Shown here in pieces: positions 16,551 to 18,800 of a stretch of DNA of 64,000 bases. Made by a program: the position numbers and the translations under genes. Where the stretch lies: NCBI RefSeq assembly GCF_014023275.1, contig NZ_CP054698.1, positions 558,001-622,000 of the forward strand, written 5' to 3'. The stretch is from Nostoc edaphicum CCNP1411 (lineage in GTDB: Bacteria > Cyanobacteriota > Cyanobacteriia > Cyanobacteriales > Nostocaceae). Positions within the stretch are counted from its first letter, which is position 1. The number at the start of each line of letters is the position of its first letter. The notes under the pieces were generated by a model. It made no database searches. It was not told the origin of the DNA and saw nothing but the letters and a program-made list of their open reading frames with translations.

Positions 16551-17343
16551 TTTATATTTTTCTATGTTGCCTGCTTCTTCAACTACCGACAAGCCGTTGA
16601 AACCGTTTCAACGTCCTCGTCGTTTACGTCGGACTGCAACCCTGCGGCGGATGGTGCGGGAAAATACTCTGACTGTGGATGACCTCATCTATCCCATGTT
16701 TGTCACCGAAGGTAAAGCACAGAAAGTAGAAATCACCTCCATGCCAGGGTGTTATCGATATTCTCTAGATTTGTTGCTCAAAGAAATAGCAGAAGTGTCT
16801 GAGTTAGGAATTAATGCGATCGCATTATTCCCCGTTATCCCCGAAAATAAAAAAGATGACACAGCCACTCAAAGTTACAACCCAGAGGGATTAGTACAGC
16901 AAACCGTCAAAGCCATTAAACAGGCAATCCCAGAAATTGTTGTTATTACTGATGTTGCCCTTGACCCCTTCACCACTCATGGTCACGATGGTTTAGTGGA
17001 TGAAAAAGGGACTATCCTAAATGACCCCACTGTAGAAGTGCTAGTAAAAATGGCACTGTCTCAAGCTGCTGCTGGGACAGATTTTGTTGCACCCTCCGAC
17101 ATGATGGATGGTAGAGTCGGAGCAATTCGCCAAGCTTTAGATGCAGAAGGTTATATTAACGTCGGGATTCTAGCGTATTCTGCAAAATACGCCTCCGCCT
17201 ACTATGGCCCCTTTCGTGATGCGTTGGATTCTGCCCCCAAATTTGGCGACAAAAAGACTTATCAAATGGACGCAGCGAATGCCAGAGAAGCTTTAAAAGA
17301 AGTTGAACTGGATATTGCCGAAGGTGCAGATATCATCATGGTA

Positions 17344-18532
17344 AGCTGTTACGCAGCTAGATTGTATAATATTAGATTAAGTAATTAATTTAGTATCAGC
17401 CATCTATGCCAGCAAAAAATCATCTTTCCCAAGAGCAGAAGGAAAGGCTACTAAAAACGCTAAAAGAGCATTAAAATCCCTACGTAAGAGAAAAGATTCT
17501 GATTTTATTATTAATGAATGATGGAAAAACTTATCAAGAGATTAGTAAGTTTTTAGATATTGCATATCCAACAGTAGCATATTGGGCGGTGCATGGAGAT
17601 CCTGATAACCTAGAAAGTTTTTGGGATGGGAGAAGAGAGGGTAACTTCCGTAAAGTTACCAAAGAGTATGAGAATTTGTTATTAGAAATAATAGAAAAAG
17701 AGCCAGTAGAGTATGGGTATGAATTTGGTCGTTGGACAGCAGCAAGACTAGCTACATACCTCGAAAAGATAACAGGAATTAAGTTAAGTGGTTCACAAGT
17801 TGGGAGAATATTAGAGCGAAAAAAAGTACGTTTACCTTTGGGCAAAATACAGCCTAGAGGACAAACAGAATCCTGAAATGCGTAAGGCATTTAAAGAAAA
17901 ATTGTCAGAATACTTAAGAATAACAAAGGAAGCCCCAGAGCGTTTACAGGTATGGTTTTGGGATGAGAGTGGATTTAGTTTAAGAGTGATAAGAAGAAAA
18001 AACTGGGGTAAGAAAGGTACAAGGAAACAAATCACAGGTCAAAGAAGAAGAGGAAGAGTAAATATTATGGGAGGGTTACGTTATCACGACAAGAAGAGAA
18101 TGAATTTTGTGATTAAAAAAGGAAATGCCGATGTATTTTATGAGCAGCTTCAATCTTTGAATAATTTTCTATTGCAAGAATGGATAGAGCAAGGAAATAG
18201 AATTGAGACTTTCAATAAATGTTCTGCGAAAATAGTGATTATCTTAGATAATGCCAGCTTCCATAAAAGAAAAGATATTTTAGTTCGTATCAAGGCAGAA
18301 ATGCCAAATATTATCCTGGAATTTCTACCACCTTATAGTCCAGATTATAATTTGATTGAATTGGTTTGGCATTCAGCAAAAGAATATATAGCTCATAGAT
18401 TGTTCGAGTCAGTATCACAGCTAGAAGAGTTGTTAAATAAATTGTTAAATGAAGGAGGTCTTATTATTAAATGGGAACGCAAAATTAAAAATAAAGGTAA
18501 TGCTGTTTATTAAATTTAGCTGCGTAACAGCT
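17344..18532 (+). mobile_element. IS630-type insertion sequence in hemB
   Basis: A 1189-bp element with 16-bp perfect terminal inverted repeats (AGCTGTTACGCAGCTA at 17344, its complement ending at 18532). It is flanked by a duplicated TA (17342-17343 and 18533-18534). TA targeting and a DDE transposase are typical of the IS630/Tc1-mariner superfamily. The perfect repeats and target duplication suggest a fairly recent insertion, although the transposase frame is already broken. Confidence 0.95.
17406..18513 (+). pseudogene. IS630-family transposase, stop codon plus frameshift
   Basis: Frame one starts MPAKNHLSQEQKERLLKTLK at 17406, meets TAA at 17472 and continues in the same frame through a helix-turn-helix region (about 17514-17820). 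At an A7 tract (17819-17825) the reading must move by +1 to reach KYVYLWAKYSLEDKQNPE and the DDE domain (to 18513). Catalytic motifs WFWDESGFS, VIILDNASFH and SPDYNLIELVW are present. With six instead of seven A residues the frames would join, so transcript slippage could make a fused protein, but the TAA would still shorten the N-terminus. Confidence 0.85.
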
Positions 18533-18800
18533 TAAAGCCTGCTCTAGCTTATTTAGACATCATCTGTCAGGTAAAAGAAGCTACAAATTTACCAGTTGCA
18601 GCCTACAACGTCAGTGGCGAGTACGCCATGATTAAAGCCGCAGCCCAGATGGGTTGGATTGATGAAAAACAAGTAATTTTGGAATCTTTAACCAGCATGA
18701 AACGGGCTGGTGCTGATTTAATCTTGACTTACTTTGCCAAAGAAGTAGCTTTGATGTTGCTCTAGATAAGGGCAAAAATTTATTAGTAGCAATTACTAAT

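Follow-up and report, generated by a model that had tools for sequence, protein, structure and literature searches.

An Asp-type hemB2 gene of Nostoc edaphicum CCNP1411 interrupted by an IS630-family element

Organization of the hemB2 Locus

The window (the whole 64,000-nucleotide stretch analyzed, positions 558,001 to 622,000 of contig NZ_CP054698.1) carries a porphobilinogen synthase gene, hemB2, in two pieces. The features of the locus, in window coordinates, are as follows:

12697..16224, plus strand: metH, the upstream neighbor, named from its translation; synteny anchor to the related genomes G060 and G016
16532..16552, plus strand: Zur-like palindromic box, TACAATAATGATTATCATT and two more bases, 12–32 bp upstream of the hemB2 start
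16564..17343, plus strand: 5' piece of hemB2, Asp-type porphobilinogen synthase, codons 1–260; PF00490 (2.2e-109), NF006762 above cut-off; contains the metal loop
17342..17343, no strand: left copy of the duplicated TA; a single TA at the empty sites of G008 and G060
17344..18532, plus strand: IS630-family element of 1189 bp; perfect 16-bp ends, DDE_3 domain; the sister copy L014 matches NF033545
17406..18513, plus strand: broken transposase gene of this element copy; in-frame stop at 17472–17474, frame change near 17819
18533..18534, no strand: right copy of the duplicated TA, read from the sequence
18535..18765, plus strand: 3' piece of hemB2, codons 261–336 and stop; PF00490 (5.9e-35), profile positions 244–315
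18992..20017, plus strand: COG0523/CobW-type GTPase with a His-rich stretch; PF02492 and PF07683

According to the sequence and the list of open reading frames, hemB2 starts with the ATG at 16564 and ends with the stop codon at 18763–18765. The element splits it after Val260 (GTA, 17341–17343; Met259 occupies 17338–17340), directly 5' of Lys261 (AAG, 18535–18537), and the upstream ORF runs 14 codons into the element to give a 274-aa chimera. The two pieces cover positions 2–243 and 244–315 of the PF00490 profile, abutting at 243/244, share one reading frame across the TA and contain no stop or frameshift. Hence, the original prediction proved correct to the base: a 1189-bp IS630-type element, flanked by a duplicated TA and ending in perfect 16-bp repeats, lies between codons 260 and 261, and removing the element and one TA gives a 336-residue frame. 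In the alignment with 1b4k, the structure of the P. aeruginosa porphobilinogen synthase, Lys261 falls on the MVKP lysine (residue 260, counted along the alignment), presumably the Schiff-base lysine of the enzyme.

Promoter and terminator predictions over 16200–20100 did not exceed those in shuffled sequences, staying within one SD (15 vs. 12.3 and 3 vs. 2.8, respectively). In the spacer that separates hemB2 from the COG0523 gene, a stretch of 160 bp (18805–18965) resembled a small mobile element. This candidate was rejected: the genome holds no second copy, and no inverted repeat of at least 12 nt was found at 18766–18992. Farther upstream, at 11959–12240, there is a short ORF with tandem EFKDSLT-type repeats, and a similar repeat precedes metH in G016.

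HemB2 Belongs to the Asp-Type Porphobilinogen Synthases

Three hemB loci were found in the CCNP1411 genome. Two of them (C6:2989923-2990882 and C6:352311-353270) are intact and encode the Cys-type metal loop DTCLCEYTSHGHCG (DTCLC...HCG), whereas the loop of hemB2 reads DVALD...HDG. The genome search for another hemB proposed with the original prediction thus returned two intact genes, both Cys-type. The case named there as refuting, a genome with no second hemB, does not apply, and the view of the interrupted copy as a dispensable paralogue is supported. In a tree of 32 proteins (HemB2 and 31 loci chosen from the searches, being a part of all matches, with a bootstrap not fully settled), 19 Asp-type rows were separated from 13 Cys-type rows with 100/100 support; the loops of the 31 loci, read by script, were of the Asp type in 18 and of the Cys type in 13, matching the tree split. 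Membership of HemB2 among the Asp-type porphobilinogen synthases, foreseen from its metal loop, follows from the PF00490 match, the Asp loop as read, and the position in the Asp clade (100/100). The closest solved sequences, 1w1z and 1b4k (1.2e-130 and 2.5e-117), both have the DVALDPF loop and are presumably Asp-type, zinc-independent enzymes. By class, HemB2 would be a zinc-independent enzyme too, although, unlike these two, the interrupted gene is unable to yield the full protein.

The intact hemB at C6:352311 has hemC, hemE, hemA, hemF, a class-III aminotransferase gene (hemL-like), SOUL and Rieske genes, and a three-gene export system as neighbors. The surrounding region (G000:C6:344767-358472, L067:4768-18473) holds a second tetrapyrrole set of hemA, hemL-like, hemB, hemC, hemE, and hemF, together with SOUL and Rieske genes and a DevBCA-like exporter. 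This set is similar to the hem part of tolyporphin clusters as outlined in the available excerpt of PMC10459692; by eye, no tol-type genes were recognized among the translated products of L067 and L220. In another same-genus genome, G002, the sole hemB found (C3:818236-818980) consists of two pieces and contains a TAG, which may be due to a sequencing error.

The Genome Holds at Least 23 Full Copies of the Interrupting Element

The ends of the element form an inverted repeat of 28 nt, including the TAs, at 89% identity, with the outer 16 bp perfect. The genome search (G000; 8.3 Mb in 6 contigs) revealed at least 23 full copies at 97–100% identity, a lower bound since scoring covered 40 of the 56 initial candidates, and three shorter, more distant matches. 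Because all 23 full copies have the perfect ends and the duplicated TA, the interruption of hemB2 is an IS insertion far beyond chance. The assignment to IS630 is based on the DDE_3 domain in the second ORF of the hemB2 copy and on the match of the intact copy L014 to the transposase model NF033545 (262.6 bits, 4.8e-78; cut-off 100).

An open transposase frame of 372 codons was found in five of the 23 copies (L013, L014, L015, L020, and L027). The copy in hemB2 is not among them: its ORF is broken into 17514–17876 and 17878–18513, and its stop at 17472–17474 is shared with L021. Judged by these defects, it is a defective IS630 member, mobile at most in trans. Among the 23 copies (L005–L027), single-base length differences occur, several of them in short A-runs, and 18 copies lack an open transposase frame; both features could reflect real decay, slippage, or assembly error. 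The hemB2 copy also has 16 substitutions seen in none of the other copies, all of them within 119 bp (17588–17706), as if a patch had come from a diverged element. The source of this patch was not found among 10 element copies from other genomes, the best of which agreed at 9 of 17 differing sites.

Within 53 same-genus genomes, CCNP1411 included, and with up to eight candidates scored per genome, the best full-length copy outside CCNP1411 was 94% identical; on this ground, the expansion looks private to the CCNP1411 lineage. The element shares the TA target, the TA duplication, and the IS630-group transposase with ISY100 of Synechocystis (Tc1/mariner/IS630 group). According to the excerpt of the ISY100 report (PMC2170065), the terminal repeats of that element are 24 bp long, in contrast to the 16-bp perfect repeat found here, and 34 of 39 in vitro products lay in TA with normal duplication. 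Unlike ISY100, the hemB2 copy has no open transposase frame.

The position of the insertion immediately before the catalytic lysine, emphasized in the original prediction, was confirmed. Its significance was not, as uninterrupted hemB2 contains 57 TA positions (42 left and 16 right, the duplicated TA counted once). Since the element sits at a duplicated TA in at least 23 places and hemB2 offers 57 such sites, the position next to the lysine codon is a matter of chance. Any of the 42 TAs in codons 1–260, if hit, would sever the lysine-bearing part of the gene. Targeting of the lysine codon was rejected: the flanks of the 23 insertions share little besides TA, agreeing otherwise only on a mostly purine preceding base (14 A, 7 G, 1 T, 1 C). 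By a loose rule lacking a chance control, 12 of 23 insertions are flanked by open frames on either side; this count was left out of the argument.

hemB2 Is Intact, Missing, or a Relic in Related Genomes

hemB2 at 91% identity or more is present in six of 53 same-genus genomes (CCNP1411, G028, G014, G060, G008, and G033), and full-length hemB2 was not found in the remaining 47. The gene is uninterrupted in all five other carriers. The empty site ATCATGGTAAAGCCTGC is identical in G008 and G060. The latter shares synteny with the window: metH is followed by an intact hemB2, one extra gene, an FAD protein, COG0523, and htpG.

G016 is also syntenic. Positions 12661–16556 and 18970–24511 of the window correspond to 4060–7955 and 7960–13501 of locus L201; these matches adjoin, therefore hemB2 is missing in G016 and the box lies 49 bp before the COG0523 start. 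Identities in metH/htpG were 94.9/94.5% for CCNP1411–G016, 94.2/94.2% for CCNP1411–G060, and 94.6/93.7% for G016–G060; those of the COG0523 gene were 97.9%, 91.3%, and 91.0%, respectively. By these values, G016 looks nearest to CCNP1411, with insecure branching, and its lack of hemB2 would be due to a deletion. Because the three genomes are split nearly three ways in metH and htpG, the order of events falls short of proof.

In G025, a hemB2 relic of 31 residues at 65% identity (110 bp at 74%) adjoins a gene that also neighbors hemB2 in G014 and G008. No hemB of any kind was matched in G059, a genome of 72% completeness. Contigs with hemB2 or the relic also carry plasmid-type genes, named from reading the translations of L062, L064, and L066: ParA-like and DnaB-like in G008, ParA-like in G028, and DnaB-like in G025. 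The presence of these genes suggests that hemB2 may be plasmid-borne in some relatives.

The Control Region and the Low-Zinc Partners

The box at 16532–16552 has no mismatch in any of the five hemB2 relatives, and its 19-base core is also present in G016. In the flank at 16503–16531, 18 to 20 of 29 positions differ in G060, G008, and G014, the three relatives counted. Scored against the Zur consensus, the window contained one match vs. 0.55 expected, and the box, two mismatches off, is not significant alone. The genome-wide search allowing one mismatch gave nine places vs. five for the reversed-pattern control, one of them an exact match before another COG0523 gene; as the hemB2 box with its two mismatches is absent from the nine, this search is too weak to define a regulon. 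The genome encodes three FUR-family proteins, for which every NCBIfam match, Zur included, was below the cut-off.

The best NCBIfam match of the COG0523 gene downstream of hemB2 is the zinc metallochaperone ZigA, below its cut-off. No Zur-like box was found in the 400 bp before this gene, and it probably belongs to the hemB2 transcription unit. In G014 and G033, genes of these types are grouped as well: hemB2, FAD-dependent protein, threonyl-tRNA synthetase (thrS2), DUF1636, and COG0523, followed in G014 by GTP cyclohydrolase I. Family tests covered the G014 thrS2, DUF1636, and cyclohydrolase and the G060 FAD protein; other neighbors were named from their translations. The best thrS2 match in the CCNP1411 genome is 55% identical.

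Published systems offer close parallels, as far as the excerpts of the reports go. In Anabaena PCC 7120, the Zur regulon includes hemB2, thrS2, and folE2 (PMC6103462) as well as COG0523 genes (PMC10957091). The hemB-II and folE-II of Synechococcus PCC 7002 are located on plasmid pAQ7 and induced by the chelator TPEN (PMC4628125), and Pseudomonas putida has a Zur-linked HemB2 without the zinc cysteines (PMC2770081). The excerpts thus describe, for Anabaena and Synechococcus, a likewise second porphobilinogen synthase gene, Zur-type control, and low-zinc partners (COG0523, thrS2, folE2 or folE-II, and an FAD-dependent protein). The CCNP1411 locus, compared by description and not by sequence, differs in that hemB2 is cut by an IS and COG0523 is the sole partner beside it. 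By analogy, Zur would control hemB2 in CCNP1411. The proposed role of this copy as a low-zinc backup is supported in the same way by the Zur-like box, the COG0523 neighbor, and the published Zur-regulated hemB2.

Age of the Insertion

The dN/dS of the left piece was 0.09–0.14 in all five comparisons with relatives, and that of the right piece was 0.03–0.07 in four of five, reaching 0.45 vs. G008 on four differences. Since most of the divergence precedes the insertion, these values date it only loosely. Together with the undamaged pieces, they fit a probably recent event and do not prove it. Around the insertion, about 380 bp of hemB2 (the hemB2 pieces within 17179–18750) differ from G008 at one position (18602), and 16564–17150 differs by 5–9%; a recombination tract is possible.

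Origin and Meaning of the Interrupted Gene

We consider it highly probable that hemB2, the cyanobacterial low-zinc, Asp-type copy, was recently inactivated by an ordinary insertion of an IS630-family element into a TA. Because the transposase gene of the hemB2 copy is broken, the transposase would most likely have been supplied in trans by an intact copy of the same genome. Heme and chlorophyll supply would continue through the Cys-type HemB, and the loss would be limited to the zinc-sparing backup. Direct observation covers the insertion itself, the two intact paralogues, the conservation of the box, and the syntenic relatives, G060 with an intact gene and G016 without it; the order of events among the three genomes would be a reconstruction. 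Altogether, the interruption looks like an intermediate stage in the ordinary loss of a gene that the cell can do without, with no new mechanism involved. None of the literature entries joining insertion sequence, hemB, and cyanobacteria dealt with this subject, to judge by titles and the opening of the abstracts.

Cyanobacteria are often polyploid, and the insertion might be present in some chromosome copies or cells of the culture while an intact allele persists. Both hemB2 pieces are undamaged, five of the 23 element copies could supply the transposase, and elements of the ISY100 type transpose by cut and paste, as stated in the excerpt of PMC2170065. The assembly, however, shows a single state, and fixation would cost little since full-length hemB2 was not found in 47 of 53 genomes; we regard such a polymorphism as unlikely. 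That a repeat was wrongly joined into hemB2 during assembly is very improbable, even if the genome contains this element at least 23 times over and sequencing error can mimic the frame-breaking length differences or stop of 18 of the 23 copies, many of them in A-runs. The TA duplication is clean and the hemB2 pieces abut exactly; moreover, the 16 private substitutions individualize the hemB2 copy, which is thus not a collapsed consensus of the others. Developmentally excised elements occur in heterocystous cyanobacteria, and excision under zinc starvation could in principle restore hemB2, as the element shares the orientation of the gene that it interrupts, this gene is probably stress-induced, and the two pieces keep one reading frame across the TA. 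Its transposase is nevertheless of the IS630-type DDE kind instead of a site-specific recombinase and is broken in this copy, and the same element occupies 22 other sites, which leaves a regulated element hardly credible.

With the ordinary IS insertion as the preferred reading, CCNP1411 represents a naturally occurring knock-out of the HemB that spares zinc, in a photosynthetic bacterium whose demand for tetrapyrroles is high. The series of CCNP1411, G060 (intact), and G016 (missing) makes it testable whether the spare zinc-free enzymes or the COG0523 metallochaperone are needed at low zinc.

A Possible Erosion of the Low-Zinc Gene Set

The most interesting part is the loss pattern around the COG0523 gene, and the insertion is perhaps one instance of a broader trend in the genus to lose low-zinc enzyme copies. 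As a tentative hypothesis, which we think may well be wrong, the zinc-free enzyme copies hemB2 and thrS2 are repeatedly lost, either to an inserted IS or to an internal deletion, and the COG0523 chaperone is kept and brought beside a Zur-like promoter. If this rule were true, the chaperone and not the spare enzymes would be the part of the response worth keeping, and the CCNP1411 operon would be a single step short of the arrangement in G016.

At 86% identity or more, 12 of 53 genomes contain the COG0523 gene, with G022 included on the basis of two matches that adjoin. Among these 12, hemB2 is intact in four (G008, G014, G033, and G060), broken in CCNP1411, and was not found in seven. Four of the 12 (G016, G063, G013, and G022) show a Zur-like box no farther than 400 bp from the COG0523 start, compared with 804 of 12000 random 400-bp stretches of the same loci (6.7%). 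Several points speak against a simple erosion rule: eight of the 12, CCNP1411 included, have no near box; hemB2 is present in G028 without a COG0523 gene at 86% identity or more; a number of the genomes are in fragments; and counts of presence do not by themselves separate loss from gain. Full thrS2 occurred in three of 53 genomes among the matches listed (G014, the source of the query, G033, and G023), with a 395-residue part in G008. Relics of thrS2 lie just upstream of COG0523, possibly as 22 residues in G063 (C1:3653969-3654034; a weak match, E 4e-4) and as 102 residues in G009 (C137:12355-12660).
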